Part shown: positions 6,615 to 35,846 of the stretch, one piece after another
Layout of the letters: the number at the start of each line of letters is the position of its first letter
How positions within the stretch are numbered: position 1 is the stretch's first letter
DNA from: Ruminococcaceae bacterium R-25
Lineage (GTDB): Bacteria > Bacillota > Clostridia > Saccharofermentanales > Saccharofermentanaceae
NCBI GenBank assembly: GCA_003149065.1
Contig: QGFZ01000001.1
Span: forward strand, 744,001-808,000
Direction of reading: 5' to 3'
DNA: 64,000 bases
Position numbers and translations under genes: made by a program
Notes under the pieces: generated by a model
What the model saw: only the letters and a program-made list of their open reading frames with translations
The model's database searches: none
What the model was told of the DNA's origin: nothing

Positions 6615-7713
6615 TGCCTTTAATATCCTTTAAAGCATCCAAATATGCTGAAGTGACAATACTTCTGTCGAACACTTTTTCCATTTTAATTCTTCCGCGC
6701 CTGCCCATTTCTTCACGCTCAGCTATAGGCATTGCAAGGAACTTTCTGATAGCTCTGACAAGGGATTCCGTATCATTGACCGGTACAATAAATCCCGTAA
6801 CGCCGTCATCGACACCTTCCCTGCAGCCCGGGTGATCAGTTGTTATTACAGGTCTGCCGCTTGCAGCAGCTTCCAGAATTACATTGCTCATTCCTTCAGG
6901 ATAATACGAAGGATGAATCGTACATTGAGAGAGTTTCTGGAAATCCGGGATGTTATCTACCCTGCCGTGATAAACGATATCTCCTGCTGAAGAAGCCTCG
7001 TCCAACACAGACTTATAAGAATCATCAGATGCGCCAAGAACATGGAATACGGCTTCCGGATGATCCTTTCTGATTATCCTTGCTGCTTCAATATAGTTGT
7101 CGATGCCTTTCTGCTTTATCACCCTTGCAACGAAAAGAAAATCAACTGTAGAAGATGACGGAAAGCTGAGTAATGAATACTTCTCAAGATTTACGCCGCT
7201 TCCCGGTATACGTGCAAACACATTACTGTTGCCGATCTTATTCTTCTCGAAAAATGCTTTACTGTCATCATTCTGGAAAAAAATGCGCTTAAGATTGCTG
7301 CCTTTGCAGGAATTCTTATAAAGCATGATCATTATTTTCTGAAGAAAGCCTTTATTTCCAAGTGCAGAACCCATACCGGTGATATTCATAACGGCCGGAA
7401 TTCCGAGTTTTCTACAAGCCATACCGCAGTAGATATTGGGTTTTGTAGTAAACAGGAATACCGCATCAGGCTTAATTGTCTTAAGCAGTTTTTTGTATTG
7501 TTTATAAAGCTTCAGATCAGATAAAGGATTAGTTCCGTGCTGATCGATAGTTACAGGGACAAATGTACAGCCTATTTCTTCAAGTTTCTTATAATCTTTA
7601 TCCGCAGGTGTGGCAACAATGACAGAATGGCCTTGCGCAAGCAAAGCTTTGATGAGTTGAGATCGAACTCTTAAGATGCCGCTGTCAGTCACTGATGCAA
7701 ATAAGATCTTCAT
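6607..7713 (-). CDS. GT4 family glycosyltransferase (PglA/CapM-like)
   Basis: A 368-aa GT-B enzyme. The C-terminal motif HPSYYPEGMSNVILEAAASG with GCREGVDDGVTGF is the pattern of PglA/CapM-type enzymes that often transfer N-acetylhexosamines or uronic acids (family knowledge; the sugar here is not proven). I place the start at the ATG at 7713 because it forms an ATGA overlap with the stop of the TagF-like gene; a GTG three codons upstream is possible. The N-terminal half keeps TTKPNIYCGMACRKLGIP, typical of this subgroup. Confidence 0.87.
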   Translation of the reverse strand: MKILFASVTDSGILRVRSQLIKALLAQGHSVIVATPADKDYKKLEEIGCTFVPVTIDQHGTNPLSDLKLYKQYKKLLKTIKPDAVFLFTTKPNIYCGMACRKLGIPAVMNITGMGSALGNKGFLQKIMIMLYKNSCKGSNLKRIFFQNDDSKAFFEKNKIGNSNVFARIPGSGVNLEKYSLLSFPSSSTVDFLFVARVIKQKGIDNYIEAARIIRKDHPEAVFHVLGASDDSYKSVLDEASSAGDIVYHGRVDNIPDFQKLSQCTIHPSYYPEGMSNVILEAAASGRPVITTDHPGCREGVDDGVTGFIVPVNDTESLVRAIRKFLAMPIAEREEMGRRGRIKMEKVFDRSIVTSAYLDALKDIKGNG

Positions 7714-8870
7714 TGACGACACTTACTTCCAAAACAAGCATCCACGCAAGCTTTAGTTGCGCCGATTCCGTATTTTATAAATCTGTCTCTGAATGTCTTG
7801 GTATTAGAACATTCCATCTCATAATCACAGTTACAGATCCTGTCTAACAGATCATCTTCTGTCCTGCAGCTCTTATTCGGATAGTAATCGTCTATATCAA
7901 AATATGTTCCGCGGTCAGCAAGATACGTCTCATAATCGTATGCATAGCAGAAGATCGGCTTGCAAAGCACGGAGTAATCAAAGGCTATTGCACTGTAATC
8001 AGTGATCAGGATGTCAGATACTATTATTAGATCATTTACAGCAGGATATTCTGAATAATCCCTTACGAATTCATCAAACTGTATGCCCAGCACCTTTGTT
8101 GTCTGGTGATGTGCTCTGAACAGAACAATATAATCTGAACCGAGCGTTTTCTTCCAGATATCTAAATGAATAGGCGGCTTGATCTCATAATTAGCCCCAC
8201 CGTCAGTGCTGTCGCGCCAGGTTGGTGCATACAATATGATCTTCTTATCGGATGGAAGCCCGAGCTTTGATTTAAGCTCTGCCCTTCTTTCTTCAGAGGC
8301 AAGCCAAAGCTCTTCATTTCTTGGCATTCCGCAGCGAAGATAAGTCTTCTCATCGGCGTTAAAAGCACTTTTCCAGACCTTCTCATCATGATCTCCGGAT
8401 ACTACAAGGTGATCTACAGTATTGAAGTTATAATCTTTTCTGCCCGGGCAGTCATTACCTATATGCTTAAGGGCAATACCATGCCAGGTATTCAAATAAA
8501 TCTGGGATTTCTTTTTAAACTTAAGTCCACGCTCAATATTGGTATTAGTTACCCAATATTTGGCTTTAAGCGCCGTCTTAAAATACTTAAAGGAATCGAT
8601 CCTGACAGTATCGAGCTCTTTATGATCCTGAGGCTTTTCAAAAGCCCAGACCATTCTATAAGAACCATATTCCGGATGAGACTTCAGATAATCGTAGATA
8701 GCCTTCGGGCTGTCATTAAAACCCAAGCCCATGAAAGACACAAATAATATAAGTTTATCGTCCGTCTTGACAAATAAACCCATCACTCTGAAAACGAAGC
8801 TCATTATCACACGATAGAGCTTCTGCAAAATAACGTTATGCTTAAGAATGTATATCAGTCTCTTACGCAT
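7710..8870 (-). CDS. CDP-glycerol:glycerophosphate glycerophosphotransferase-like (TagB/TagF family)
   Basis: A 386-aa protein of the Glyphos_transf family. It carries the hallmarks YLNTWHGIALKHIG (around residue 130), LYAPTWRDS and the C-terminal ITDYSAIAFDYSVL box with its conserved DYS and following hydrophobic segment. Members transfer glycerol-phosphate or ribitol-phosphate from a CDP-activated polyol to teichoic acids or capsules. The short N-terminal hydrophobic stretch suggests membrane association. The upstream gene encodes a cytidylyltransferase fusion, a plausible source of its CDP-polyol donor, so phosphopolyol decoration of this polymer is the likely outcome. GAGGT precedes the ATG. 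Whether it primes, polymerises or adds single units is not resolved. Confidence 0.86.
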   Translation of the reverse strand: MRKRLIYILKHNVILQKLYRVIMSFVFRVMGLFVKTDDKLILFVSFMGLGFNDSPKAIYDYLKSHPEYGSYRMVWAFEKPQDHKELDTVRIDSFKYFKTALKAKYWVTNTNIERGLKFKKKSQIYLNTWHGIALKHIGNDCPGRKDYNFNTVDHLVVSGDHDEKVWKSAFNADEKTYLRCGMPRNEELWLASEERRAELKSKLGLPSDKKIILYAPTWRDSTDGGANYEIKPPIHLDIWKKTLGSDYIVLFRAHHQTTKVLGIQFDEFVRDYSEYPAVNDLIIVSDILITDYSAIAFDYSVLCKPIFCYAYDYETYLADRGTYFDIDDYYPNKSCRTEDDLLDRICNCDYEMECSNTKTFRDRFIKYGIGATKACVDACFGSKCRQ

Positions 8871-8949
8871 CCGGTTACCTCATGCATAACAACTCTGCCT
8901 TATGTACAAACAAATATAAACTGCCATGTTAGCAGCTTATAGCAAATTT

Positions 8950-8991
8950 TATCATATAAAAATAAAATAAGAAAATGACCAAACCCGGTCA
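8950..8991 (-). terminator. weak hairpin with U-rich tail after the SDR/cytidylyltransferase gene
   Basis: On the minus strand TGACC and GGTCA pair around a 6-nt loop, overlapping the stop codon, and are followed by a long T-rich run (TTTTCTTATTTTATTTTT). The stem is only 5 bp, so this may be an attenuator or leaky terminator before the TagF-like gene, which starts about 80 bp further on. It could also be chance. Confidence 0.35.
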
Positions 8992-10173
8992 GTTTAGGTT
9001 AATGTCTTTTGTCTTTAACAGCACAGTTTTACGGATCTGGGTGCTGTTGGTGCTCTGAGTATATGGAAAATACACTATCTCAACACCCTTATCCTTAAAG
9101 AATTCCTCATAGCGGTTAAATCTCTCAGACCCTTTATAATCTGAACCAACGAAAAGCTTATCATAATGATATAACTCCCATGCATCAGAGTCTTCAGGGC
9201 AGGATTTAACGACTTTATCAACATATTTACATCCTGCAATGATCTCACATCTCTCCTCAAAAGGAATAAATGTCTCTTTTCCCTTCCATGCGCCGCTCTC
9301 ATGAACGCCTACAATAAGATAATCACACTCAGACCTGGCTCTTTTGAGGATGTTAAGGTGTCCTACATGGAAAAGATCGAATGTTCCAGACAAATAACCG
9401 ATCTTAACCCGTCTCTCATTATCCAAACGGCCTGAGTCTTTTTTGTACTGATAACTGTGGAATCCGTATTCATGGGGATCAGTCTGATAACGAGCGATAA
9501 CGTCTTTAAAAATCTCATCATACTGAGGAATAAAGAGCACTGACGAATCAAAAAGCCTGGAAACTATCTGGGAAGCAAGATCTTCAAGCAACTCAAGCTG
9601 ATTATCGCCGCCATAGAACTTAGAGCCTTTAAAAGTGGCCGGTGACACATTGAGGATACGGTTAGATGTACCTGAAGCCTCAAGTTCAATGTTAACACTC
9701 TCAACAAATCTGCAAACAGCAGCCTTTGAAGCTGAATAGACCGAAGCAGCCGGTGAAGACAATAATCCTGCGATAGAACCCATTACACCGCAATAGAACT
9801 TATCTGAAGACTTTATACGGTCATAGAACAGACGAAGTATCTCGATTGTGGATGTGGCATTAACTGTCATCATGTTCCTGATCTCAGCCGTATGCATATA
9901 CTCAAAATCACAGATACGGCCAAATCCGGCTGTTATCATAAGGACTTCAACGGACTTATCAGAAGCCAAAGAAGAAATATAATCATGATCAAGATACAGC
10001 AGATCACAATAATGATATCCATAAGAACCGGATCGTATCTGCCCTTCTTCAGGTTTGCTCTTATCTAAGATCTCAACAAAACAACCGTCTGAAATCAGTT
10101 TATTTACAATAGCAAGGCCGATTCCGTTGCTTCCGCCGATAACTACAGCCTTCTTCAAACAATCTATAGACAT
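8989..10173 (-). CDS. fused short-chain dehydrogenase / TagD-like cytidylyltransferase
   Basis: A 394-aa two-domain protein. Residues 1-230 are a short-chain dehydrogenase: VIGGSNGIGLAIV cofactor loop, ITAGFG, and the catalytic Ser plus YSASKAAV (YxxxK). Residues 255-394 are a cytidylyltransferase: GYLSGTFDLFHVGH with the HxGH motif, then GVHESGAWKG and TQSTNSTQIR matching the RxxxTSSTxI region of TagD/GCT enzymes. By family logic the first domain reduces a keto-sugar phosphate and the second activates the resulting polyol phosphate with CTP, as in the ribitol enzyme pair TarJ/TarI or Bcs1, although those use other folds. ATG at 10173 follows AAGGTG; a GTG four codons upstream is the alternative. 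It is the first gene of the operon and probably feeds the adjacent phosphotransferase. Confidence 0.85.
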   Translation of the reverse strand: MSIDCLKKAVVIGGSNGIGLAIVNKLISDGCFVEILDKSKPEEGQIRSGSYGYHYCDLLYLDHDYISSLASDKSVEVLMITAGFGRICDFEYMHTAEIRNMMTVNATSTIEILRLFYDRIKSSDKFYCGVMGSIAGLLSSPAASVYSASKAAVCRFVESVNIELEASGTSNRILNVSPATFKGSKFYGGDNQLELLEDLASQIVSRLFDSSVLFIPQYDEIFKDVIARYQTDPHEYGFHSYQYKKDSGRLDNERRVKIGYLSGTFDLFHVGHLNILKRARSECDYLIVGVHESGAWKGKETFIPFEERCEIIAGCKYVDKVVKSCPEDSDAWELYHYDKLFVGSDYKGSERFNRYEEFFKDKGVEIVYFPYTQSTNSTQIRKTVLLKTKDINLN

Positions 10174-10201
10174 GTAAAACAACACCTTATGTCAAAAATT
10201 A

Positions 10202-10235
10202 ATTATATTTAGAATAATACCATATAATTCTTTTC
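10202..10235 (-). promoter_or_regulatory. possible promoter of the polysaccharide operon
   Basis: An A+T-rich stretch upstream of the first operon gene holds TATAAT on the minus strand (10202-10207), about 30 bases before the start codon. No convincing -35 box lies at 17 bp, so only the -10 element is supported. A terminator for the previous operon lies just upstream, which makes an independent promoter here likely. Confidence 0.35.
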
Positions 10236-10263
10236 AAAAATCAGCTTCTATTTATCAGGACAA

Positions 10264-10291
10264 TAACAAAAAAGGCGGGATATCCCGCCCT
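10264..10291 (-). terminator. Rho-independent terminator of the peptide-cluster operon
   Basis: GGGCGGGAT and ATCCCGCC form a strong palindromic G+C-rich stem on the minus strand, immediately followed by TTTTTTGTT. It lies about 45 bp after the stop of the thioredoxin-like gene and separates the peptide operon from the polysaccharide operon that starts at 10173. Confidence 0.85.
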
Positions 10292-10335
10292 TAAATGAAA
10301 AATAGATCTAAAAAACACTAAACAAACATGTTCAT

Positions 10336-10884
10336 TTACTCTTTTACCCTGCTGTTACCGTCGAGTAGCTGAGTCTTCAAGCCTTCGCCGGATACCAGAG
10401 CATTCATAAGTTCAGGAGTGATCTCATCGTAAGTGAACAGATACTTATCTCCGATAACTATTGCCGGTACATAACGGCGGTCTTCAGGGATGTTGTGAGA
10501 ATCATAGTACTCAGTGATGATCTCAAAATAGCGGTCCTCAACTTTATTAAGGCAGATAAGCTTAACCTTACTGGTTGTGCCGTCAGGCAAAGTGATCGTC
10601 TCAGGAAGGCCTGCCGTCAACGGTTCAAGCTGCTTGCACCACGGACAGTAATCCTTATAAAAATAGTAAATTACGCTGTCTGTCTCACTGATAGGATCGC
10701 CAAGCTTTGCATTGTAATAAGGCTCATAAAGATCAATCTCTAAAGGTGCAGGCTTGAGCTGAGGGAATACCGGATATATTACTCTGTTTAATACCTTAGG
10801 CCAGAGCTTCGGCATAAAGCAGCCAAGCGTAAAAACAGCAGCAAACGCTAATATAACCAGAACTATCTTAAGGGCTTTCTTCAT
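10336..10884 (-). CDS. membrane-anchored thioredoxin-like protein
   Basis: A 182-aa protein with an uncleaved-looking N-terminal membrane helix (residues 6-24, IVLVILAFAAVFTLGCF) and an extracytoplasmic thioredoxin fold. The redox motif CPWC sits near residue 75 in YYFYKDYCPWCKQLEPL, and a VPAIVIGDKY cis-Pro loop near residue 140 is the expected partner. The family makes, breaks or isomerises disulfides outside the cell. As the last gene of the peptide operon it may act on the Cys-rich exported peptides (inference). ATG at 10884 is preferred over a TTG one codon earlier. A strong terminator follows. Confidence 0.82.
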   Translation of the reverse strand: MKKALKIVLVILAFAAVFTLGCFMPKLWPKVLNRVIYPVFPQLKPAPLEIDLYEPYYNAKLGDPISETDSVIYYFYKDYCPWCKQLEPLTAGLPETITLPDGTTSKVKLICLNKVEDRYFEIITEYYDSHNIPEDRRYVPAIVIGDKYLFTYDEITPELMNALVSGEGLKTQLLDGNSRVKE

Positions 10885-10949
10885 CAAAAATCACCATGCA
10901 AATTGCCTGACAGGATTGTCAGGCAACAGCATTATACTTGATAAAAATA

Positions 10950-11186
10950 TTACTTAAAAGGATTACCAGGGCACTTTGTCATGTGCTTAGCAAGATCCTG
11001 GAGTTGTCTTAACCTTAACATTGCACCGCATCCAAGACATACCCAATCAACATATGAATTAGGCTTCGGTCTATCGTCATTTCCGCCAACTACAGCTTCG
11101 AGATCTGCATCGCTGATCTCACTTCTGAGCATTTTCTTAAGTGCTTCCCATTCTTCCTGAGTAACAGGTGCTTTAAAATCGGACAT
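10950..11186 (-). CDS. double-glycine leader peptide with C2HC zinc-finger-like core
   Basis: A 78-aa peptide starting at the ATG at 11186, preceded by a perfect AAAGGAGG site; an in-frame ORF extends upstream but lacks a ribosome site. Residues 1-35 are an acidic amphipathic leader ending ISDADLEAVVGG, the consensus cut by C39 peptidases and typical of Nif11/NHLP leaders. The predicted 43-aa core begins NDDRPKPN and contains C-x2-C-x14-H-x3-C (VCLGCG, then AKHMTKC), which looks like a small zinc-binding finger. The divergent C39-ABC exporter is the obvious processing and export machine. Whether the peptide is modified, or is a bacteriocin or signal, is unknown. No homologue is recognised by name. 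Confidence 0.78.
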   Translation of the reverse strand: MSDFKAPVTQEEWEALKKMLRSEISDADLEAVVGGNDDRPKPNSYVDWVCLGCGAMLRLRQLQDLAKHMTKCPGNPFK

Positions 11187-11223
11187 TTTCTTTTCCTCCT
11201 TTAATTTGTTATAAACACGATGA

Positions 11224-12048
11224 TCAATCATCGTAATTATCTAATTGTTTCTCAAAATACAAAGCGGCTTCTTGAACCGGTAAAAAAGCGTAATGATTAA
11301 CTTTCAAAGCTTCAATACAGTTAATTATACTGCTTGTTATTTTTTCCTCAAACCCGCTGTTCCATTCAGGAACAAAAGAATTCGATAAAAACGAAGTTAA
11401 CGCTTCCCTGCCGTTAAGCTCACGCCAAATATTGCTCTTCCCTTGCTCTAAAAAAACCACTCTGTTAACTTTCAGTCTATGATTCAAGCTTCTGGCTGAA
11501 GATCCGCAGAAAGGCGTAGGTTCATATATAACTCCGTCTTCAGTCGGCCTAAGCAAAGCAAAATCACCGTTAATAACGATTGCATCACTATAAGATTCTA
11601 AAAGCTTAGATAAAGTAGTCTTACCAGTTCCACTCGGTGCAGAAAGAATAACGATCTCGTTTCTTATCACCAGTGTTACGCCGTGAAGTCCGATACAGTG
11701 ATCATGTAGAGCAAGCATAATCGCGTATTGGATACCCATCTTGGCGTAAATAGTGTTCTTACCATTTAAACAAACTCTAATTGCATCGACCGGAATATCA
11801 TATTCTAAAGAGAAATAAGTTATTCCATAACATGAATAATATGTTTTTTTGTGAGCACCTTCAGATTCTGCGTACCATCCCTCAGGTTTGCTCAAATCAT
11901 TATAATCTGAAGAAATAAGCTGAATCTTTATCGATTCTTGAAATGTATCCGAAACATCTTGTTCATTCTTCCAACCGGCAAAAATAGAATCTAATAATTC
12001 ATCTTCCCCGTTAACAGAAAGCAAGAAGCTTCCGAGTGCAATTCTCAT
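11224..12048 (-). CDS. HPr kinase-like ATP-binding protein of a RiPP cluster
   Basis: A 274-aa protein. The C-terminal half resembles the HPr kinase/phosphorylase core: LHGVTLVIRNEIVILSAPSG with P-loop SAPSGTGKTT (about residues 135-145), then an acidic VINGDFALL and VVFLEQG strand. Stand-alone homologues occur in lasso and other RiPP clusters, where one group phosphorylates a precursor residue; that role here is inference. It lies 3 bp after the 71-aa candidate precursor gene, with no clear ribosome site of its own, so translation probably depends on the precursor gene. No PTS genes are nearby, which argues against a true carbon-control kinase. Confidence 0.75.
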   Translation of the reverse strand: MRIALGSFLLSVNGEDELLDSIFAGWKNEQDVSDTFQESIKIQLISSDYNDLSKPEGWYAESEGAHKKTYYSCYGITYFSLEYDIPVDAIRVCLNGKNTIYAKMGIQYAIMLALHDHCIGLHGVTLVIRNEIVILSAPSGTGKTTLSKLLESYSDAIVINGDFALLRPTEDGVIYEPTPFCGSSARSLNHRLKVNRVVFLEQGKSNIWRELNGREALTSFLSNSFVPEWNSGFEEKITSSIINCIEALKVNHYAFLPVQEAALYFEKQLDNYDD

Positions 12049-12051
12049 TAA

Positions 12052-12267
12052 TTAATCACACATTCCCGGGACATGTCCAAAACAAACATTGTTTGAATCA
12101 CCAGGAGCTAAATGTCCAAATTCATAATCACAACCCCAGCAATTCTGATTATTTGCCGGATTACCATTCTTTGCTGAAGATGGGGATAAGCCGCCGGTTG
12201 AAGCGATCATAGTATCAGCTGCGTATTCGTCAATAAAAAGCTTAGGAGACTCATAAGTCTTCTTCAT
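12052..12267 (-). CDS. candidate RiPP precursor, four cysteines
   Basis: A 71-aa peptide with a good GGGAGA site before the ATG. The N-terminus MKKTYESPKLFIDEY has the Y-x-x-P pattern that PqqD-like recognition elements bind in lasso-type leaders, followed by ADTMIASTGG with a possible double-glycine cut site at residues 25-26. The C-terminal 45 residues are Ser/Gly/Asn-rich with Cys at 43, 46, 62 and 70 and two His. The gene directly follows the radical SAM gene and its PqqD partner, so it is the likely substrate of thioether or similar cross-linking. The modification is not readable from sequence. Confidence 0.72.
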   Translation of the reverse strand: MKKTYESPKLFIDEYAADTMIASTGGLSPSSAKNGNPANNQNCWGCDYEFGHLAPGDSNNVCFGHVPGMCD

Positions 12268-12313
12268 AATAATTCTCCCTTCCCGAAGTCTTTTCCAACA
12301 TGATAATTATACA

Positions 12314-13465
12314 TCAAATACATTCCGGAGAAGTAGGAAAAACAGTCAGAGTTTCTTGATTTTTAAGGCTTTTCAGGAGATAAGTATACTGGCAAGTATA
12401 GGGATCCGGTTCATCTATAGAACCCGTTCCTTCAAACCGTCTGCCTGCACAATTACGTGTGCAATCTGATCTCAAAGAGCATTTTGCGCATACATCAGGA
12501 AGTTTAAAAACAGATGCCTGATTTGCTTTCAATTGTTCCCATGCTGCTTCAAAGCCTATCTCAAAAGGATCAGCGCCCTTCATTCCGAGCAATGATATAC
12601 ATGTATTCATATTGCCGTTCCATGATATGGCACATGCAGAATAAGAACCGATACAATAATCCTTATCATCAGCACTATCAGATTCTTGATAATCTTCTAT
12701 TCTAAATCCATCTAACTTTTTCTCTAATTCTTTTGATTCTTCCAAAGCTTTAGAAACTTCAGATGAAGGCCTGCATGCAACACAAGCTCTTTCGGCAGGG
12801 CTTAGTCTGCAAGACAATGCTTCTGAAAAACCGGAGTCATATCTATGAGCATTAATATCTGTTATTAGAACAAACGGGAGATTCAAATCGCTGCATAATT
12901 GACCGACCAAAGGATAATCACGTACATTTTGCTTGATCATCGTGAAAGTTAAGTTGACAGGAATACCTAAAGATCGGAAGAAACGGATATTTTCAACTGT
13001 CTTATCAAATCCATTCTTATCACCTGTTACAGCCTGATAAGTCTCATTAGAGCCGCCATAAAGCGTAATCGCCGCATTGTGAGGAGGATATTTCCTGAAC
13101 AGATCGCGAATCTCGTCGCTGTAAGATCCGGCATTGGACATAACGGTTAATAGAAAACCCATCTGAGCGAGCTTCTCGTAAAGTTCAATAAAATGAGGAT
13201 ATTGAGTGCACTCACCGCCTGACAGTGTAAGGTATAACACTCCAGCTTCACGGATCTGGTTAGCCATATTAAGCCATTCATCGAGCGTGCGCATTCGGCC
13301 GTATTTAGAAGCCTGACTGTCAATCATATGGACGTAGCACATCCTGCAGTTAAAGTTGCAGCGATATGTGAGCTCGAAAATACAACTTAAAGGTCTTCGT
13401 TCTTTTATTGCCTTTAACTGAAGCTGGTCTTTGATGCTGTTTGTATCCCAGTTCTTTTGAATCAT
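12314..13465 (-). CDS. radical SAM/SPASM peptide maturase
   Basis: A 383-aa radical SAM enzyme. CNFNCRMCY (C-x3-C-x2-C, near residue 36) binds the SAM cluster, and LTLSGGECTQYPHF is the GGE motif. The C-terminal third is a SPASM-type domain rich in Cys: CIGSYSACAISWNGNMNTC, CAKCSLRSDCTRNCAG and a final Cys near residue 365. Such enzymes make thioether, C-C or epimerised residues in ribosomal peptides, with a PqqD-like partner to hold the leader. It overlaps the PqqD gene by 4 bp (ATGA). The neighbouring 71-aa peptide is the natural candidate substrate. Confidence 0.9.
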   Translation of the reverse strand: MIQKNWDTNSIKDQLQLKAIKERRPLSCIFELTYRCNFNCRMCYVHMIDSQASKYGRMRTLDEWLNMANQIREAGVLYLTLSGGECTQYPHFIELYEKLAQMGFLLTVMSNAGSYSDEIRDLFRKYPPHNAAITLYGGSNETYQAVTGDKNGFDKTVENIRFFRSLGIPVNLTFTMIKQNVRDYPLVGQLCSDLNLPFVLITDINAHRYDSGFSEALSCRLSPAERACVACRPSSEVSKALEESKELEKKLDGFRIEDYQESDSADDKDYCIGSYSACAISWNGNMNTCISLLGMKGADPFEIGFEAAWEQLKANQASVFKLPDVCAKCSLRSDCTRNCAGRRFEGTGSIDEPDPYTCQYTYLLKSLKNQETLTVFPTSPECI

Positions 13466-13731
13466 TCCTCAATAAGGTCCTTGTCACGCAGCTGATCCAG
13501 AAAGACATCAACATCTTTTTCTGCTGTAGTTAAGTCAACTTCATATTCAGAGATAAGATTATCAATAAGAGCCTGCTTATCGCTCCCCTTTTCCAATAAT
13601 CTCCAAAGATAAGCTCCTGTCTCATTTAAGCTCATGATCCTGTTAGGAACATAATTATCACTGCCGATCCCCATGATCACATATGTATCTATAACTTTAC
13701 GGAGCATATAACCTGAACGGATCTTCATCAT
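13462..13731 (-). CDS. PqqD-like RiPP recognition element
   Basis: An 89-aa stand-alone PqqD-fold protein: an N-terminal three-strand region (SGYMLRKVIDTYVIMG), the conserved MSLNETGAYLWRLLEKG helix, then two more helices ending FLDQLRDKDLIEE. These domains bind precursor leader peptides and present them to the radical SAM enzyme. ATGA overlaps link it to the genes on both sides, so a fixed stoichiometry is likely. Confidence 0.87.
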   Translation of the reverse strand: MMKIRSGYMLRKVIDTYVIMGIGSDNYVPNRIMSLNETGAYLWRLLEKGSDKQALIDNLISEYEVDLTTAEKDVDVFLDQLRDKDLIEE

Positions 13732-14210
13732 TGATCTCCCTTCTTTGCCTTGCCACCTGAATGGAACATAATGCTTTTTATCTTAGCGGCGGCTTTATGT
13801 ATAAATATTCTCGGTCCGGTTATTACTATAACCCAAAACGAATATAACCTTAAGCCAAAACTGTTGCAGCTTATCCTCTTCCCTTTTCTTTCAATCTCGG
13901 ATACAACGCCGACGATCTGGTCATAATTCAGATTTTTATCAATATAGTATTGGTTATCACCGGCCATTTTAAAGCTGGTCTTCCCCTTCCATATGACGCG
14001 GTGAAGAGCAAAACGGCCGTTCTGCCTGTCGTACAATACAATGTCGCCAACACGTATCTTAGCTGGTGGAACAATAACTGCTCCATCGCGCAAATGATAT
14101 AGTAACGGCTGCATACTGTTTCCGGTTACACGGACAAAAGCCTTGCCCTGCACAGAAAGCTGTTCACGGACAAGAGAGAAGTATTCATCTGTCGGAATTG
14201 CTTTAACCAA
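13728..14210 (-). CDS. signal peptidase I-like S26 family protein
   Basis: A 160-aa protein with the S26 signature VTGNSMQPLL (catalytic Ser in SM, near residue 33) and the downstream FALHRVIWKG and MAGDNQ segments of the catalytic core. A hydrophobic stretch near residues 125-140 could anchor it. Unlike housekeeping LepB, it has no N-terminal membrane helix before the Ser; this S24/S26-like subgroup is common in Firmicute RiPP loci. It may trim or process the peptide, but the usual Lys general base is not obvious and the activity is unproven. TTG start at 14210 with GGAGGGG just upstream. Confidence 0.72.
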   Translation of the reverse strand: MVKAIPTDEYFSLVREQLSVQGKAFVRVTGNSMQPLLYHLRDGAVIVPPAKIRVGDIVLYDRQNGRFALHRVIWKGKTSFKMAGDNQYYIDKNLNYDQIVGVVSEIERKGKRISCNSFGLRLYSFWVIVITGPRIFIHKAAAKIKSIMFHSGGKAKKGDQ

Positions 14211-14223
14211 ATACCCCTCCTTG

Positions 14224-15441
14224 TCAATTTGAGATGCTTTTTACGTATTCATCTGCATCAAACTTGCTTTTTTCCAAAGAAGAATGACTGACACCAACTT
14301 CACTGAACAACTTAGAAGTATTCATAAGATTACTGATTCCTTTGTTTAACCTGAAGTCAGAATGATCTCTCGAAAAGTAATTCTTAAGCATTAATCCACT
14401 TTGATAAACCCACGCAAAATGCTTGAGGAACTTGTGCTTATCAGAGTTTTTCCAATTCTCAAGACCACGCACCTGCAAAAACTTAAAGAATTCGACAGGA
14501 TTTCTATGTTTAGATATAAATCTTGATGTCGAATTTTTTCTCCATTCAGGCGAACTTCCGAAGTTTCCGCTAAGCAGGATATAATCCAAGAGTTCTTCAC
14601 AAACCTGATCATTTACCCGATTATATTCATATTGTGGTTTTAGACCTAAATATATCTCACACATCGATGATAATGATTCAGCGAGTTTGGCTAAGCCGAC
14701 AGACTCTGCTCCTTTAATATATTCAGGCCAATTATCTTTATTAAGGCATTTATCGGCAAACATCATCCAGTCAAGTATGTGCCTTAGACCGATACCTTCG
14801 AAAAAATGCTGATTTATATGTTCCAGGAGTATAAGTCCGTCTATTGTGCTCGCTAATCTGTGAGTACTATTGATTCCTTTAATTAACTGCCTGTCGAGCT
14901 TTTCAAGCGTGGCAGAATTCTCAGGCAATGCAAAGAATCTATGGATCTCAATCTCCACATTATTCTTTTGAAAGCATCTATGTCTGCCCATGATGATGTC
15001 CATCTCGTCAGTCTTCTCTATCGAACCGGAATTTAGAACTACCGCACATGCTTTTTCAAAAACTTCCGGATTTACAACTATATCAATATCACCTAATGCA
15101 CGAAGATCGGGTGATGGATAGTAACGGGCAGCTGATGTTCCCTTAATGACTACAAAACGGATATTATGGTTATCCAGCATCCGAATTGTCTCATTCTCGA
15201 CAGTAATAATCAGATAGTTAGATTGAATGATATGAACTATATCATTTCTCCACTTTTTCGTGAGGTCATCAGACAGATCAGGAATCTGAGGCAAAACCTT
15301 TTCAGGCAAAGCCAGAATAGCATGGGATTTAAAGATCTGATAAACAGCTTCTGCCTGTTCGGAATTTAGTTCAGGAACTGCTGTATCCCAGACAGAAGCC
15401 TTTATAAGTTCAAGTGCTTTATCTCTAATTACAGTATCCAA
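14224..15441 (-). CDS. nucleotidyltransferase-fold protein (NTP_transf_5 type) of the peptide cluster
   Basis: A 405-aa protein. The core VVIKGTSAARYYPSPDLRAL followed by GDIDIVV matches the GS...DxD pattern of the NTP_transf_5 nucleotidyltransferase group, and NVEIEIHRFF supplies a third acidic strand. The C-terminal half is helical. Such proteins recur in lasso and other RiPP clusters, with no settled function. It is the first gene of the operon; TTG at 15441 follows GGGAGA. A paralogue lies at 56526-57659, sharing GIGLR and IDWMMF segments. Confidence 0.75.
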   Translation of the reverse strand: MDTVIRDKALELIKASVWDTAVPELNSEQAEAVYQIFKSHAILALPEKVLPQIPDLSDDLTKKWRNDIVHIIQSNYLIITVENETIRMLDNHNIRFVVIKGTSAARYYPSPDLRALGDIDIVVNPEVFEKACAVVLNSGSIEKTDEMDIIMGRHRCFQKNNVEIEIHRFFALPENSATLEKLDRQLIKGINSTHRLASTIDGLILLEHINQHFFEGIGLRHILDWMMFADKCLNKDNWPEYIKGAESVGLAKLAESLSSMCEIYLGLKPQYEYNRVNDQVCEELLDYILLSGNFGSSPEWRKNSTSRFISKHRNPVEFFKFLQVRGLENWKNSDKHKFLKHFAWVYQSGLMLKNYFSRDHSDFRLNKGISNLMNTSKLFSEVGVSHSSLEKSKFDADEYVKSISN

Positions 15442-15532
15442 AAAGCTTGTTCTCCCTGAACTAAACAGAATATCAATATTTTATGCTTCAACAACCCCAA
15501 AAACAAGGAAAACAGAACTCTGGTATATAGTT

Positions 15533-15538
15533 TATAAT
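15533..15538 (+). promoter_or_regulatory. possible -10 box for the NHLM exporter operon
   Basis: TATAAT lies 28 bases before the ATG of the first exporter gene, in the 125-bp divergent region between peptide operon and exporter. No good -35 box is visible at 16-18 bp, so the promoter may need an activator or be weak. The opposite-strand promoter for the peptide operon must lie in the same short region. Confidence 0.4.
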
Positions 15539-15566
15539 TAATAAATTAAAGGACAGGAGACGGTAC

Positions 15567-15782
15567 ATGGCGGATACAGATAACAAAATGTTATTTCGCG
15601 AGAAAAGTCTTGAGGCAGTAGATTCGCCTGAGCCTTTAAATGAATACATAAAAGTTACCACTCCCGGTATCTGGCTTGTGATAGCAGCTGTTTTGATGCT
15701 TGTTATCGGTATATTGACCTGGATAATACTGGGAAGCCAATTTGACCCCTATTCCCTGCTTTATAATTTACCGAGAGTATAA
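15567..15782 (+). CDS. truncated HlyD-like NHLM secretion protein (membrane anchor only)
   Basis: A 71-aa protein with AGGAGA before its ATG. Residues 8-60 (MLFREKSLEAVDSPEPL, then NEYIKVTTPGIWLV and a membrane helix ending near residue 55) match the N-terminus of NHLM-system HlyD-family secretion proteins. The long coiled-coil and barrel-sandwich part that normally follows is absent; the reading frame stops after 15 periplasm-side residues and the ABC gene begins 4 bp later, leaving no room for a frameshifted remainder. It is either a deletion product or a minimal subunit of the exporter. Confidence 0.78.
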   Translation: MADTDNKMLFREKSLEAVDSPEPLNEYIKVTTPGIWLVIAAVLMLVIGILTWIILGSQFDPYSLLYNLPRV

Positions 15783-15786
15783 TCAC

Positions 15787-17970
15787 ATGGGTTTGGCTGG
15801 CAAGAACACAATTCCAAAACCGGTTAAAAAGGGTTATGTAAATGTTCCCCTTGTTATTCAGATGGAGGAATTGGAATGCGGCGCCGCTGCCCTTGCCATG
15901 ATCCTGCACTTCTATAAATACTGGATACCTTTGGAGCAGACAAGAAGCGACTGCGGTGTCTCTATGGCTGGTGTAAATGCCAAAAACATTGTAGAAGCAG
16001 CAAGGACATATGGCCTTACGGCAAAAGGCTGGAGAGTCGAGGCTGAAGAACTTAAGGATAACGGACCTTTCCCCTGCATTATCCATTGGGGATTCAATCA
16101 TTTTGTAGTGCTTTGCGGTTTCCAAGGCAATAAAGCGTTTATTAACGATCCTGCAAAGGGAAAGATCAAGGTTGATTGGGAAGAATTCGACCGTGAATAT
16201 ACAGGAGTCTGTCTTTTCTTTGAACCTTCTGAGGAATTTAAGCCGTTTGGAAAACCTAAATCTGTATTCAGTTATGCCCGCGAAAAGCTTTCCGGTGCAG
16301 GAAAAGCAATATTCTTTGCTCTCATCACGACTACAATTGCTTCAATCCTGGAGATGTTTAAACCTGCATTTGCAATGACATTTATTGACCGTTTGCTATC
16401 AGGTTCTGATCCGGATTATCTGAATCTTTTCACGTTCATATTCCTGTTATTTGCACTTGTTTCTGTGGTTACAGGTGCTATCTCAGCTATTTATACACTG
16501 AAGATCGAAGCAAAGCTCGCCGCAAAAGGCAGTTCGAATTATCTTAGGAAAGTCCTGCACCTTCCAATGCTCTTCTTCTCGCAAAGACATGTATCTGATA
16601 TAGCCGACAGGCAGACTATGAACGCTTCTGTAGCTAATACTTTGATACAGACATTTGCTCCCCTGATCCTGCAGTCGTGTATGCTCGTAATCTATCTCGT
16701 CATCATGATTAGATACAGTCTGATTCTCACGCTTATTGGTGTTGGAGCGATCATCTTAAACCTGCTCTTCTCAACATTGATTGCCGTAAAGCGCAACAAT
16801 ATAGCAAGAGTAAGCCAGCGTAATGAAGCGGCTCTTGCGTCCGAGACAATGTCCGGCATCACCATGATTGAAACTATTAAAGCATCAGGTTCCGAGAGAG
16901 GATTTTTCGGCCGCTGGTCAGGCTATCAGGCAAGGTTAAATACTCAGAATGTTAAAAGCACTAAATTGAATCTTCTGTTAAATACCATTCCCTTCTCCAT
17001 TACAGGTTTAGCAAACGTTATCGTATTAGGTATAGGTGTTCTGCTTATTATCAACGGTAAGTTCACTGCCGGTATGTTAATGGCATTCCAGGGATATCTC
17101 TCATCCTTCATGACTCCTGCCACATCTCTTATCAGTGCCGGACAGTCGATTCAGGAAATGAAGACTAAGATGGAACGAATCGATGATGTAATGAACTATC
17201 CTGAAGATTCTGTGTTTAATGCGAAAAGTGACACTGAAAGCACTACAAAACTCGATGGCGATATTGAATTAAAGAATGTCACTTTCGGTTATTCCAAGCT
17301 CTCAAAGCCTCTGTTTAACGATCTTTCATTGTCTATAAAAGCAGGCAGGAAAACAGCAATCGTCGGAAGATCAGGCTGTGGTAAATCCACATTAGTAAAA
17401 CTCATTTCAGGTCTTTATCAGCCTGATTCAGGCGACATATTAATTGATGGCAGATCTTTAAAGGACATCGACAGAAAATCACTTATAGGATCTGTCAGCG
17501 TTGTCGATCAGGAAAGCACTTTATTTGATGATACGATCTTAGATAACATCAGGCTTTGGGACCAATCTATCGTTGGGGATAGCATAACAGACGCCCTTAA
17601 GGATGCCTGGATCTACGATGATGTTAAAGCTTATGATGATTATTTACAGCACAGGATCTTAGACGGCGGCAAAGATCTGTCCGGCGGCCAGAGACAGCGC
17701 CTGGAGATCGCCAGAGCACTTGTAAGAAACCCTTCTATCCTGATAATGGACGAAGCCACTTCTGCCCTTGATTCAGAGACAGAAGCCAAGGTAATGAATT
17801 CTATTAAAAACCGGAACATCACCACCATAATAGTTGCTCACAGACTTTCTACCATCAGAGACTGTGACGAGATAATCGTTATCGACAAAGGTTCTGTAGT
17901 CCAGCGCGGAACGCACGAAGAGCTGTTCTCTAAAGAAGGTTTATATAAGGAGTTGGTATCAAATGAATAA
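15787..17970 (+). CDS. NHLM peptide exporter with C39 peptidase domain
   Basis: A 727-aa ABC exporter. Residues 25-150 are a C39 peptidase: ECGAAALAMIL with Cys31, HWGFNHFVVL with the His, and FINDPAKG with the Asp, all three catalytic residues present. A six-helix membrane domain follows (about 170-450), then an ATPase with GRSGCGKSTL, LSGGQRQRLEIARAL and ILIMDEATSALD. It would cut double-glycine leaders, such as that of the peptide at 10950-11186, and export the core. I chose the ATG at 15787 over an earlier in-frame one at 15742 because the earlier start lies inside the preceding gene and adds unrelated residues. Confidence 0.93.
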   Translation: MGLAGKNTIPKPVKKGYVNVPLVIQMEELECGAAALAMILHFYKYWIPLEQTRSDCGVSMAGVNAKNIVEAARTYGLTAKGWRVEAEELKDNGPFPCIIHWGFNHFVVLCGFQGNKAFINDPAKGKIKVDWEEFDREYTGVCLFFEPSEEFKPFGKPKSVFSYAREKLSGAGKAIFFALITTTIASILEMFKPAFAMTFIDRLLSGSDPDYLNLFTFIFLLFALVSVVTGAISAIYTLKIEAKLAAKGSSNYLRKVLHLPMLFFSQRHVSDIADRQTMNASVANTLIQTFAPLILQSCMLVIYLVIMIRYSLILTLIGVGAIILNLLFSTLIAVKRNNIARVSQRNEAALASETMSGITMIETIKASGSERGFFGRWSGYQARLNTQNVKSTKLNLLLNTIPFSITGLANVIVLGIGVLLIINGKFTAGMLMAFQGYLSSFMTPATSLISAGQSIQEMKTKMERIDDVMNYPEDSVFNAKSDTESTTKLDGDIELKNVTFGYSKLSKPLFNDLSLSIKAGRKTAIVGRSGCGKSTLVKLISGLYQPDSGDILIDGRSLKDIDRKSLIGSVSVVDQESTLFDDTILDNIRLWDQSIVGDSITDALKDAWIYDDVKAYDDYLQHRILDGGKDLSGGQRQRLEIARALVRNPSILIMDEATSALDSETEAKVMNSIKNRNITTIIVAHRLSTIRDCDEIIVIDKGSVVQRGTHEELFSKEGLYKELVSNE

Positions 17971-20035
17971 TAACTCCGGAAATATGAACTATGAGAAATA
18001 TGCTTTATCCGCTTTGCTTAAAGCAATGCAAATTAATATGCCCGAAATCCATGAAACAACTGGTCTTATCGATCATTTAAATGTCGTATCAGCCTTAACA
18101 GGAATAATGTACCGTGAGGTAACCCTCCCCAATAAATGGTACAATGATGCAGCAGGCCCCATGATCGCTTCTATTAAAGACTCAGACAAAACTGTAGCTC
18201 TTATTCCTTCCGCATTCGGAGGATACCATTATTCTGATCCAGACTCAGGCAAAAATATCCGTATAAACAGCAAGAATGCAGCACAATTAAGCGATAAAGC
18301 ATTATGTTTCTACCGTCCTCTGCCCCAGCGACAGATGAACACCAAAGATCTCCTGCGCTATATGCTCAAATGTCTTAACGCCTGGGATTTCATAAGTTTT
18401 GCTCTTGCTTCAGCTGCGATCACAATAGTCGGATTGCTCGCACCTACGTTAAATCAGATCTTGATAGGACCGGTAATTCAGGCAAAAAGCATGGCGCTTT
18501 TATCCGCTGCTGCAAGCTTTCTGTTCTTCGCAACATTGTCCACTATATTCCTTACAATTATCAGAAGTCTTCTCTTAGCAAGGATACGAAACAAGCTCAG
18601 CATCAATACCGGTGCAGCTTCCATGATGAGACTTCTCTCACTCCCTGCTCCGTTCTTCAGAACGCACTCTGCCGGCGAGCTTAATCAGGACATTACAAAT
18701 GTTGATAAGCTCTGCAATACAATAGTTGATACATTCTTCTCGTCAGCTGTAACGGGGCTGTTCTCGCTTGTTTATCTGTTCCAGATATTCAGCTTCGCTC
18801 CAAGCCTCGTCTGGCCAAGCTTAACCGTTACTATATTGACCGTCTGCATCACACTGATAACATCGAAAATGCAGATCAGAGTTGATAACGAGAAACTAAA
18901 AGCAAACGCAAATGAGCGTGGTTTTGTATATTCTCTGATATCCGGAATCCAAAAGATCAGAGGCTTTGGCGTTGAGGAACAAGCATTCGAGAAGTGGTCT
19001 AAGTACTATTCAAAGACTTCAGAGCTCACCTACAATCCCCCTCTGTTCATACGTTTATCACAAGTCATGATCACAGCAGTATCTCTGCTCGGAACACTTG
19101 CCATGTACCTTATAGCCGTAAAGAACAATGTCTCTGTAGCTGACTACTATGCTTTCAATGCATCTTACGGTTATATCTCATCAGCATTTACAGCGTTATC
19201 AACACTAGCCATCTCCACGGCTACGGTTAAGCCTATTCTGAAGCTTTTAAAGCCTTTATTCGATGCCGTTCCTGAGTCAAACGGCAACGCTGAAGTAATC
19301 AACGAACTTCAAGGAAATATCGAATTACAGAACATCACTTTTAATTACGTTGAAAACACAAAGCCTGTATTTACGGATCTTAACCTTAAGATCAACAAAG
19401 GCGATTATGTTGCTATCGTCGGACATACAGGCTGCGGTAAAACAACATTAGTGCGCCTGCTTCTTGGTCTTGAGAAGCCTACGGAAGGCAAAGTTCTCTT
19501 TGATGACAAGGATCTTGAATCAATAAATAAGAATTCACTTAGACAGCACATCGGTACCGTTATGCAGGACGGAAAGCTATTTGCCGGTACCATCTACGAC
19601 AACATTGCTATATCCAATCCTAGCACAAAGTCTGAAAATGTTTGGAAAGCGGCCGAAATAGCCTGCATCGCAGAAGATATCAAAGATATGCCTATGGGAA
19701 TGCGGACCATGATCCAGGATGGCGGTCTCTCCCTTTCCGGTGGTCAGAGACAAAGATTACTTATCGCACGTGCAATTGCTTCTGATCCAAGCATACTTAT
19801 CTTTGATGAAGCAACATCTTCCCTGGATAACATTACTCAGCAAAAGATAACAGAAGCTCTGGAATCACTTAATTGCACCAGGATCATCGTTGCACACCGC
19901 CTCTCTACTATTCAGAAATGCAACAGGATATTAGTGCTTAATAATGGAAAGATCGCCGAGGAAGGAACCTACAGCGATCTTATTGAAAAGAATGGGATAT
20001 TTAAAGGTTTGAGTGAAGGCCAGGAACTGTTATAA
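17963..20035 (+). CDS. NHLM exporter partner ABC permease/ATPase
   Basis: A 690-aa half-transporter. About 130 N-terminal residues form the non-peptidase domain typical of the second NHLM ABC protein, then six membrane helices (about 150-430) and an ATPase with GHTGCGKTTL, LSLSGGQRQRLLIARAI and ILIFDEATSSLD. It overlaps the C39 partner by 8 bp (ATGAATAA), so the two probably form a heterodimer. Its 3' end overlaps the convergent glycosyltransferase gene by 6 bp; no terminator is visible between them. Confidence 0.92.
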   Translation: MNNNSGNMNYEKYALSALLKAMQINMPEIHETTGLIDHLNVVSALTGIMYREVTLPNKWYNDAAGPMIASIKDSDKTVALIPSAFGGYHYSDPDSGKNIRINSKNAAQLSDKALCFYRPLPQRQMNTKDLLRYMLKCLNAWDFISFALASAAITIVGLLAPTLNQILIGPVIQAKSMALLSAAASFLFFATLSTIFLTIIRSLLLARIRNKLSINTGAASMMRLLSLPAPFFRTHSAGELNQDITNVDKLCNTIVDTFFSSAVTGLFSLVYLFQIFSFAPSLVWPSLTVTILTVCITLITSKMQIRVDNEKLKANANERGFVYSLISGIQKIRGFGVEEQAFEKWSKYYSKTSELTYNPPLFIRLSQVMITAVSLLGTLAMYLIAVKNNVSVADYYAFNASYGYISSAFTALSTLAISTATVKPILKLLKPLFDAVPESNGNAEVINELQGNIELQNITFNYVENTKPVFTDLNLKINKGDYVAIVGHTGCGKTTLVRLLLGLEKPTEGKVLFDDKDLESINKNSLRQHIGTVMQDGKLFAGTIYDNIAISNPSTKSENVWKAAEIACIAEDIKDMPMGMRTMIQDGGLSLSGGQRQRLLIARAIASDPSILIFDEATSSLDNITQQKITEALESLNCTRIIVAHRLSTIQKCNRILVLNNGKIAEEGTYSDLIEKNGIFKGLSEGQELL

Positions 20036-34547: not shown

Positions 34548-34907
34548 TTACGCCTTCTTGGTAAACATACCATTTTCATAAATATATGTGCCGTTCCAGC
34601 GCTTACTTCCTACACCCTCTTCCTTAGTAACCTCTAAACCAAGAATAGTCTTCATTCTTTGTTCTCCAGCACCGTCATCAATTTTTGTGCTTGATTTAAC
34701 TCCGAGAGCGGACATAGCATTATATAGAGAATCAATACTTGCATCAGAATCAATAGTATATGTCTGACCATCATAGCTAACAGTACCATTCTTAGGAGTA
34801 CCATCACCAAATCCAGCCCACATCATAGTATTAGCAATAGAACTAGCGGCAACTACATCACTACTGCTAAAACGAATAATATCTGCTTCAGGCTTTTTCA
34901 TAATCAT
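34548..34907 (-). CDS. small protein A with DVVAAS leader-like motif
   Basis: A 119-aa protein of unrecognised family. The N-terminus KKPEADIIRFSSSDVVAASS ends a short hydrophobic strand in a D-V-x-A-A-S motif that recurs in the paralogue at 35481-35846 and, more loosely, in the 71-aa peptide at 12052-12267. The rest has YDGQTYTIDSDA, a central helix and a C-terminal RWNGTYIYENGMFTKKA repeat-like strand pair. It lacks Cys, so it is not a sactipeptide-like core. ATG at 34907 has AGGAGG at ideal spacing, and a strong promoter and terminator bracket it. Secreted or leader-carrying precursor is a guess. Confidence 0.75.
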   Translation of the reverse strand: MIMKKPEADIIRFSSSDVVAASSIANTMMWAGFGDGTPKNGTVSYDGQTYTIDSDASIDSLYNAMSALGVKSSTKIDDGAGEQRMKTILGLEVTKEEGVGSKRWNGTYIYENGMFTKKA

Positions 34908-34938
34908 CAATATTTCCTCCTAATCGAGTTATAATCTA

Positions 34939-35480: not shown

Positions 35481-35846
35481 TCATGTCTTCTTTGTGAATT
35501 TATAAGTGCCTGTACCATTATATGTATAAACACCATCTATATTTTCTACATCTTTGTTAAAAATGCCAGTGACTGATTTGCTACCAGTGGCTGATTTGCT
35601 ATTAAAATGGATATCATTACTACCTAGATTGTTCAAACCAGGATCACCAACATAATCAGCTAAATCAGATCTAAAAGTATAGTAAGAATCATTGTCAGAA
35701 ATTATATAATTCTTTCCATTAAATGAAAAAGTATTATTACTTTTATCACCATCATAAAACTTAGAAAGCACAACACTTGCAACACTTGCAGCAATAACAT
35801 CTGAAGATCCAAAACGGACAACTTCCATTGTAGGTTCAAATTTCAT
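35481..35846 (-). CDS. small protein B, paralogue of protein A
   Basis: A 121-aa protein of unrecognised family. Its N-terminus KFEPTMEVVRFGSSDVIAAS mirrors protein A (IIRFSSSDVVAAS), followed by SFNGKNYIISDND (A has SYDGQTYTIDSD) and a C-terminal YNGTGTYKFTKKT. Sequence between these anchors has diverged, as expected for a diversifying secreted peptide family. GGAGTAGG precedes the ATG. TATAAT lies about 37 bases upstream of the ATG on the same strand. No Cys; no membrane helix. Confidence 0.73.
   Translation of the reverse strand: MKFEPTMEVVRFGSSDVIAASVASVVLSKFYDGDKSNNTFSFNGKNYIISDNDSYYTFRSDLADYVGDPGLNNLGSNDIHFNSKSATGSKSVTGIFNKDVENIDGVYTYNGTGTYKFTKKT

Follow-up and report, generated by a model that had tools for sequence, protein, structure and literature searches.

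What kind of peptide pathway is encoded where a radical S-adenosylmethionine (SAM) enzyme, an HPr-kinase-like protein, an S26 peptidase, two unlike small peptides and an NHLM exporter lie side by side? The question is raised by a locus at positions 10336–20035 of a 64,000-nucleotide stretch of the Ruminococcaceae bacterium R-25 genome (contig QGFZ01000001.1, positions 744,001 to 808,000), here called the window. A sequence-only reading of this DNA had proposed that the locus could represent a new class of ribosomally synthesized and post-translationally modified peptides (RiPPs). We followed it up with profile searches, structure models and genome comparison. The locus is probably a ribosomal-peptide pathway that uses the tool kit of lasso peptides and of the published pathway for linear polyphosphorylated peptides (LPP) and adds a radical SAM enzyme. 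Its novelty is that of a variant of peptide pathways with a RiPP recognition element (RRE), an HprK-like protein and a SipW-type peptidase, with a rare two-precursor subtype, and not that of a wholly new kind.

Conservation of the gene set

We scanned 84,980 species genomes with a 15-row alignment of the radical SAM enzyme and found at least 374 relatives, the best 80 of which were taken as loci. The four closest relatives are 56–62% identical to the window enzyme; the other members of the best 80 are 29–37% identical. A tree of 85 radical SAM proteins groups the window with these four in one clade, which is fully supported and sits on a long branch. All four come from metagenome-assembled genomes whose titles read Clostridia or Clostridiales; the source of one is sheep omasum.

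Three of the four (loci L094, L095 and L097) keep the order S26 peptidase, RRE, radical SAM enzyme, precursor 1, HprK-like protein, precursor 2 and thioredoxin. This co-occurrence is beyond chance, and a lone, unique cluster is ruled out by these relatives. The repetition of this seven-gene order outside the window genome means that precursors 1 and 2 belong together. The earlier observation of two unlike precursors in one locus holds in all three relatives, and the earlier impression of a ribosomal-peptide pathway fits the locus. All ten genes named in that reading are present in the order and on the strands given, as judged from open reading frames (ORFs) and from Pfam and NCBIfam matches. 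The identities of the NTP_transf_5 protein, the S26 peptidase, the lasso-type RRE, the radical SAM/SPASM enzyme, the HprK/PEPCK-fold protein and the divergent NHLM exporter are supported by searches together with a structure model.

Precursor 1 and its predicted enzymes

Precursor 1 (12052–12267, minus strand) is a 71-aa peptide that matched no NCBIfam or Pfam family at E ≤ 0.1. Its leader carries Y5xxP8xL10 and Ser23, and its core carries Cys43, Cys46, Cys62 and Cys70. Tyr5, Pro8, Leu10, Ser23, Cys43, Cys62 and Cys70 are invariant in all four precursors of the window clade, and Cys46 is present in three of them. The mean pairwise identity is 0.73 in the leader and 0.47 in the core. Ser23 sits 18 residues past Tyr5, and YxxPxL followed by Ser at this distance is found in 4/4 clade members. 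The spacing equals that of the phosphorylated Ser in the LPP leader, YxxPxVLxHQxIxFETxxS, as given in the LPP report (PMC13381572); the HQ and FET of that leader do not occur in the window clade. The match in spacing may be a coincidence.

The RRE (13462–13731, minus strand) is of the lasso-peptide type. Pfam PqqD matched it with 71.8 bits (5.8e-20), and its best NCBIfam models were the lasso PqqD ones, under cut-off. Against the PDB, a 26-row profile of this protein scored 46.6 bits with TbiB1, 37.5 with TfuB1, 37.5 with PbaB1 (9x90) and 33.0 with LppB (9x8z), and only 19.4 and 19.3 bits with PqqD of pyrroloquinoline quinone synthesis. The RRE would bind the YxxPxL leader of precursor 1.

The radical SAM/SPASM enzyme (12314–13465, minus strand) matched Pfam Radical_SAM with 80.7 bits. 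Its C36, C40 and C43, together with C271, C289, C326, C329, C335 and C339, which include the SPASM Cys, are invariant in 15/15 aligned proteins. The profile matched SkfB and PqqE in the PDB, and none of the radical SAM NCBIfam models listed for the enzyme attained its own cut-off. No relative was found in viral contigs. The enzyme would modify the Cys-bearing core of precursor 1, most likely through a Cys-based cross-link.

Kinship with SkfB and PqqE, together with Cys-bearing precursors (at least two Cys past the leader in 52 of 55 candidates, described below), would also suit a plain cluster for a sactipeptide or ranthipeptide, the other genes being bystanders. The HprK-like protein and the RRE are unlikely bystanders, because both recur beside the radical SAM gene in most of the best 80 relatives. 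Within 2 kb and on the same strand, RRE was found in 69 loci, HprK in 67, S26 in 27 and NTP_transf_5 in 8. Anywhere in the loci, some of which are truncated by contig ends, the counts were 72, 71, 33 and 24, respectively. Given this recurrence and the radical SAM model scores, we regard a plain cluster of this type as quite unlikely.

The S26 protein (13728–14210, minus strand) is of the SipW/Sec11 type. TIGR02228, the model of archaeal-type signal peptidase I, matched it with 31.7 bits (E 1.2e-7, cut-off 51.85), and a 15-row profile matched Sec11C/A in the PDB. Ser32, His70 and Asp85 are invariant in 15/15 aligned proteins. It is likely the leader peptidase and would take off the leader of precursor 1.

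The NTP_transf_5 protein (14224–15441, minus strand) is of the LppN/PsmN type and matched PF14907 with 102.9 bits (2.7e-29). It may decorate a phosphate left by the HprK-like protein. A second NTP_transf_5-like protein, named by its likeness to proteins of other loci, lies at 56526–57659 of the window (minus strand) beside sugar-nucleotide genes; a casual look noticed no RRE or kinase next to it.

HprK-like protein

The HprK-like protein (11224–12048, minus strand) resembles ScmC, PadK and LppK. The name HPr-kinase-like, given earlier from the sequence, stands by fold and by the families of the relatives; the window protein itself has no Pfam match over the cut-off. An AF2 model built with a 35-row alignment has a pLDDT of 90.4, and Foldseek matched it to PEPCK and HprK/P with E 1.8e-7 and weaker. 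We relied on the fold search because the sequence profile also matched many ABC (ATP-binding cassette) ATPases in the PDB through the P-loop stretch. The 35 aligned proteins were matched at E ≤ 0.001 by ScmC (TIGR04249, 25 proteins, cut-offs not taken into account), HprK_rel_A (10), HprK_rel_B (8) and HPr(Ser) kinase (4), the models including TIGR04352 and TIGR00679. None of these four matched the window protein at the same threshold. The HprK/PEPCK fold is thus predicted from the model.

His122, Lys143 and Asp162 are kept in all 35 proteins. Just ahead of Asp162, 26 of them have Gly, including Gly161 of the window, and 5 have Asp. Lasso kinases require His-Lys-Asp-Asp (PMC9266682). The HprK-like protein would modify a hydroxyl, either of Ser23 or of another Ser or Thr.

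Candidate precursors and the C-terminal Ser

The leader type of precursor 1 is shared by 55 candidate precursors of the relatives. These have a ribosome-binding site, a YxxP-type leader and a length of 35–150 aa, lie at most 1.5 kb from a core gene with less than half in a long ORF, and were dereplicated. No candidate came from 35 of the 80 loci, precursor 1 of L095 was lost to the filter, and the window's own peptide is outside the count. Two candidates (L155 at 14137 and L140 at 6990) may be unrelated to the radical SAM genes. The 55 start like MKK-Y-x-x-P-x-[L/F/I/V/M/A]. Counting from Tyr, position 15 is Glu in 40 of them, position 17 is hydrophobic and position 18 is Ala in 43.

A C-terminal Ser is present in 38/55 candidates. 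In a slightly wider set it was found in 39/56 against 3/26 background candidates (Fisher 8e-7, as with all such p-values here too small because the rows share ancestry). By comparison, a terminal Ser occurs in 20 of the 362 profile-matched proteins from these loci and in 37 of 66 peptides of a looser list with chance ORFs included. Of the 55 candidates, 34 have their kinase in the alignment; among these, the Ser end was seen in 2/9 where the first kinase Asp is kept and in 19/25 where it is lost, shared ancestry being ignored. The share of Ser ends did not differ significantly between loci with and without S26, NTP_transf_5 or HprK (p 0.06, 0.08 and 0.30, respectively). C-terminal Ser is the target of PadeK, ThcoK and PsmK (PMC9266682). 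Contrary to the family trend, precursor 1 ends in Cys in three members of the window clade and in Asp, as Cys-Asp, in the window. Therefore the C-terminal Ser trend does not explain the window.

Precursor 2, thioredoxin and exporter

Precursor 2 (10950–11186, minus strand) is a 78-aa double-glycine (GG) peptide with a Nif11-like leader (14.3 bits, E 0.037) and the core motif C50-x2-C53-x14-H68-x3-C72. It is 58–68% identical across the three full relatives, and C50, C53, H68 and C72 are present in 4/4. In the window genome this is the sole GG peptide of its type, apart from a second, weak match (E 0.05). The peptide occurs once each, with E below 1e-43, in four of the five clade genomes, and the fifth, that of L096, gave weak matches only (best E 0.001). 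We also looked for this peptide in unrelated contexts. Among 391 genomes of the class the only match was the window's own. A motif scan of the loci found GG peptides in L094 and L097 only and missed that of L095.

The core of precursor 2 is as conserved as its leader (mean pairwise identity 0.62 and 0.63, respectively). An AlphaFold model of low confidence (pLDDT 64, four sequences) shows a leader with two helices and a beta-beta-alpha core. Foldseek returned nothing below E 1 for this model, and the first match was a zinc finger (E 1.1). A zinc-finger-like miniprotein is therefore plausible from motif and model. It could be exported unmodified as a C2HC zinc-finger miniprotein, for example a metal-binding peptide or a folded bacteriocin, which is compatible with the proposed pathway for precursor 1. 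The C2HC spacing and the even conservation of leader and core speak for it and the weak model and fold matches against it, and we give it somewhat less than an even chance. Several peptides at L189 and L192 (G565:C5, about 16.7–17.6 kb), in a genome with an NHLM trio (L184), likewise have GG leaders and, zinc-ribbon-like, CxxC pairs or CCGH.

The thioredoxin-like protein (10336–10884, minus strand) is membrane-anchored. Its earlier naming is weak by the Pfam Thioredoxin profile (18.3 bits, E 0.0024, cut-off 23.5); CPWC and a hydrophobic N-terminus are seen in the sequence. Each of the three full relatives has it at the same place (phmmer 9e-59 to 3e-76). The anchored thioredoxin would work on exported Cys peptides.

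The exporter genes are divergent, on the plus strand. Subunit 1 with a C39 peptidase domain (15787–17970, Peptidase_C39 4e-34) nearly reached the TIGR03796 cut-off (848.1 of 853.3 bits), and subunit 2 (17963–20035) scored 648.8 of 709.4 bits with TIGR03797. A 71-aa HlyD-like ORF (15567–15782), overlooked in the first reading, matched TIGR03794 at positions 3–41 only (20.9 of 156.2 bits), so that none of the trio reaches its cut-off. The NHLM ABC1 model has 74 matches in the genome; only that of subunit 1 spans the C39 part, and it is the only full-length one. What is left of HlyD includes the membrane anchor, and its end looks by eye like that of the short forms in the relatives, as if the middle had been lost in frame. 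A shortened HlyD (163- and 213-aa ORFs) lies with both NHLM subunits about 9 kb from the cluster in L095 and about 3 kb in L097. As in NHLM/Nif11 export (TIGR03794, 03796, 03797 and 03798), both ABC subunits, a C39 peptidase and a GG-leader peptide are present. In contrast to it, HlyD has only 71 aa, the leader stays below its cut-off (32.3 bits), and so do the ABC subunits, one of them just. Precursor 2 would be the NHLM cargo, cut past Gly-Gly by the C39 domain.

Two separate pathways could also share the operon without any functional link: the radical SAM enzyme, HprK-like protein and S26 peptidase for precursor 1, and an ordinary bacteriocin of GG peptide, NHLM exporter and thioredoxin for precursor 2. 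The leaders of the two precursors and their predicted leader peptidases do differ, the other 77 of the 80 loci gave no homologue of the GG peptide, and another ABC protein in L095 and L097 could serve precursor 1. On the other hand, precursor 2 lies between HprK and thioredoxin in 4/4 and was not found without the cluster. An FKxP near its start is invariant in 4/4 and loosely resembles the RRE-binding [Y/W]xxP. In the distant locus L193 (G565:C7:2000-21500), a GG-leader peptide again lies by YxxP-type peptides, HprK, S26 and a radical SAM enzyme. Two unlinked pathways seem rather unlikely on this evidence. The GG-leader peptide of L193 adjoins a 742-aa protein with a YKPR stretch, which we take to recall LanM-type enzymes.

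Gene layout and flanks

The minus-strand genes had been described as one operon with ATGA or short overlaps. ATGA overlaps were found only at the S26/PqqD (13728–13731) and PqqD/radical SAM (13462–13465) junctions, whereas the remaining junctions are, given our choice of starts, gaps of 13, 46, 3, 37 and 65 bp. For precursor 2 the most likely start is ATG 11186, with AAAGGAGG upstream, giving 78 aa instead of the 93-aa ORF from an earlier start; ATG 10884 is the likely start of the thioredoxin-like gene. The 65-bp gap between these two genes holds a hairpin (10888–10949, minus strand; minimum free energy −22.6 kcal/mol, z −4.3, equalled by 0/200 shuffles). It has 11 pairs without a proper U-tract and is absent from the terminator list of our pattern scan. 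This promoter and terminator scan was at chance (18 vs 15.8 and 3 vs 4.1). By eye, from translations, both flanks of the cluster resemble glycosyltransferase and polysaccharide genes.

Comparison with known systems

A lasso peptide is ruled out, since the genome search lacks the macrolactam synthetase (PF00733) and the B2 protease (PF13471). PF13471 had no match in the window genome, and PF00733 had only a 32-residue match on another contig. This agrees with the sequence-only reading, which had noted HPr-kinase-like and nucleotidyltransferase proteins without lasso cyclase or protease. Compared with the paeninodin/pseudomycoidin-type lasso peptides (PMC9266682), the window shares the HprK-like kinase, the nucleotidyltransferase, the lasso-type RRE and a related leader motif. 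It differs from them in that no cyclase or B2 protease was found, a radical SAM enzyme is present and the precursor does not end in Ser.

The LPP pathway (Popov et al. 2026, PMC13381572) has a core of HprK, RRE, SipW-type peptidase and NTP transferase without lasso cyclase. In its genetics LppK phosphorylates, LppS cleaves with the help of LppB, and no role of LppN was visible in the heterologous host. The window shares with LPP the discrete RRE, the HprK-like protein, the SipW-type peptidase, the NTP transferase and the YxxP leader, the absence of a lasso cyclase, the polysaccharide locus, and a Ser spaced from Tyr like S3 of LPP. In contrast to LPP, the window adds the radical SAM enzyme, the second GG precursor and the thioredoxin, has an NHLM pair in place of the MsbA-like pump, carries Gly in His-Lys-Asp-Asp and lacks HQ and FET in the leader. 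The LPP report is on Bacilli and the window belongs to Clostridia; the words "radical", "SPASM", "NHLM" and "Clostridia" do not occur in its text. We do not class the window as LPP because it has neither the full kinase motif nor an MsbA-like pump. By analogy, it may work like LPP plus a radical SAM step.

The SynChlorMet models (TIGR04248–04251), taken as one gene set from their names, are the nearest named radical SAM/HprK/PqqD set. Like the window, they comprise an HprK-like protein (ScmC), a PqqD-like protein (ScmD) and radical SAM/SPASM proteins (ScmE/F). However, the window scored only 67.7 of 400 bits with ScmE, 47.1 of 400 with ScmF and 15.9 of 100 with ScmD, gave no ScmC match, has a single radical SAM enzyme and adds S26 and NHLM. 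In the open-licence literature, searched by titles and abstracts, we found no paper on the SynChlorMet cassette and no published pathway that joins radical SAM, HprK-like protein and RRE for one peptide.

The proposal of a new RiPP class keeps its observation of two precursors in one conserved locus. As a class it is too strong, because the LPP core was published in 2026 and because HprK and RRE recur in the best relatives, as counted above.

The wider radical SAM/HprK family

Among the 391 class genomes, 15, including the window's, have a radical SAM match at E ≤ 1e-30. The 15 loci from the other 14 genomes contain HprK in 12, PqqD in 13 and S26 in 9. The relatives are mostly Bacillota, with some Actinomycetota and one Armatimonadota. 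As a small control, the HprK, RRE and S26 profiles matched none of 8 short loci (3.1–3.5 kb) of the window genome, seven at other radical SAM matches and one at a HlyD match.

Within the window's order, 34/188 genomes have any match (E ≤ 1e-5) to the HprK-like protein. Twenty of the 36 matches were taken as loci, and 16 of these 20 have HprK and S26 without radical SAM. One of the 16 is a second HprK locus of the window genome itself, L042 (C1:1179000-1198000, about 7407–11271 of it, near 1.19 Mb), with a 649-aa ABC protein, HprK, S26, PqqD and a pepB-type peptide and no radical SAM enzyme; its gene content is nearer to LPP. Peptides of 120 and 121 aa at 34548–34910 and 35481–35846 of the window (minus strand) are similar in their starts (KPxxxxxRFxSSDVxAAS) to peptides by S26/HprK/ABC loci of sister genomes and L042. 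A casual look noticed no S26, HprK or RRE beside them.

Proposed pathway

Besides the steps assigned above to each protein, the two peptides may act as a pair. The data directly give the gene identities, the joint conservation of both precursors, the RRE-type leader motif and the predicted kinase fold; from these we infer the chemical steps, the pairing of enzymes with peptides, the export route of precursor 1 and the activity. A bolder version has one RRE present both precursors, through YxxP and FKxP, to one radical SAM enzyme and one HprK-fold enzyme with an altered site; the products, one of them zinc-finger-like, would exit by one NHLM exporter, and a modified C-terminal Ser would be found in most of the radical SAM/HprK family. 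We consider this combination unlikely.

Several observations weigh against a lasso/LPP-type pathway with an added radical SAM step. The window lacks the full His-Lys-Asp-Asp motif, its first Asp being Gly161, and phosphorylation is therefore not assured. The RRE scores LppB under the three lasso RREs (33.0 vs 46.6, 37.5 and 37.5 bits). The loci L094, L095 and L097 gave no NTP_transf_5, HprK is frame-broken in L094, and L096 retains the RRE and the radical SAM enzyme only. HlyD is shrunk in the window, and no HlyD match was found anywhere in the 1.5-Mb genome of L094. The window cluster is also without the 559–560-aa ABC protein, called MsbA-like by size alone, that adjoins or neighbours the cluster in L095 and L097.

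The HlyD remnant, Gly161 and the missing cyclase match might also be signs of a decaying lasso or LPP locus that no longer functions. However, the ORFs of the cluster are intact in the window, without interruption, and the precursors, RRE, radical SAM enzyme and S26 peptidase are conserved in three relatives whose loci differ widely in G+C content (0.50 to 0.61, compared to 0.38 in the window). Decay is thus very unlikely, and a lasso/LPP-type pathway with a radical SAM step remains the probable reading.

In such a pathway, radical SAM chemistry would be joined to lasso/LPP-type tailoring and SipW-type leader removal in one peptide family. According to record titles, this family recurs in many gut and rumen Clostridia. 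Sharp predictions on enzyme action follow from the C-terminal Ser bias of the relatives and from the Asp-to-Gly change of the HprK-like proteins, and in the two-precursor subtype a single operon combines two unlike leaders.

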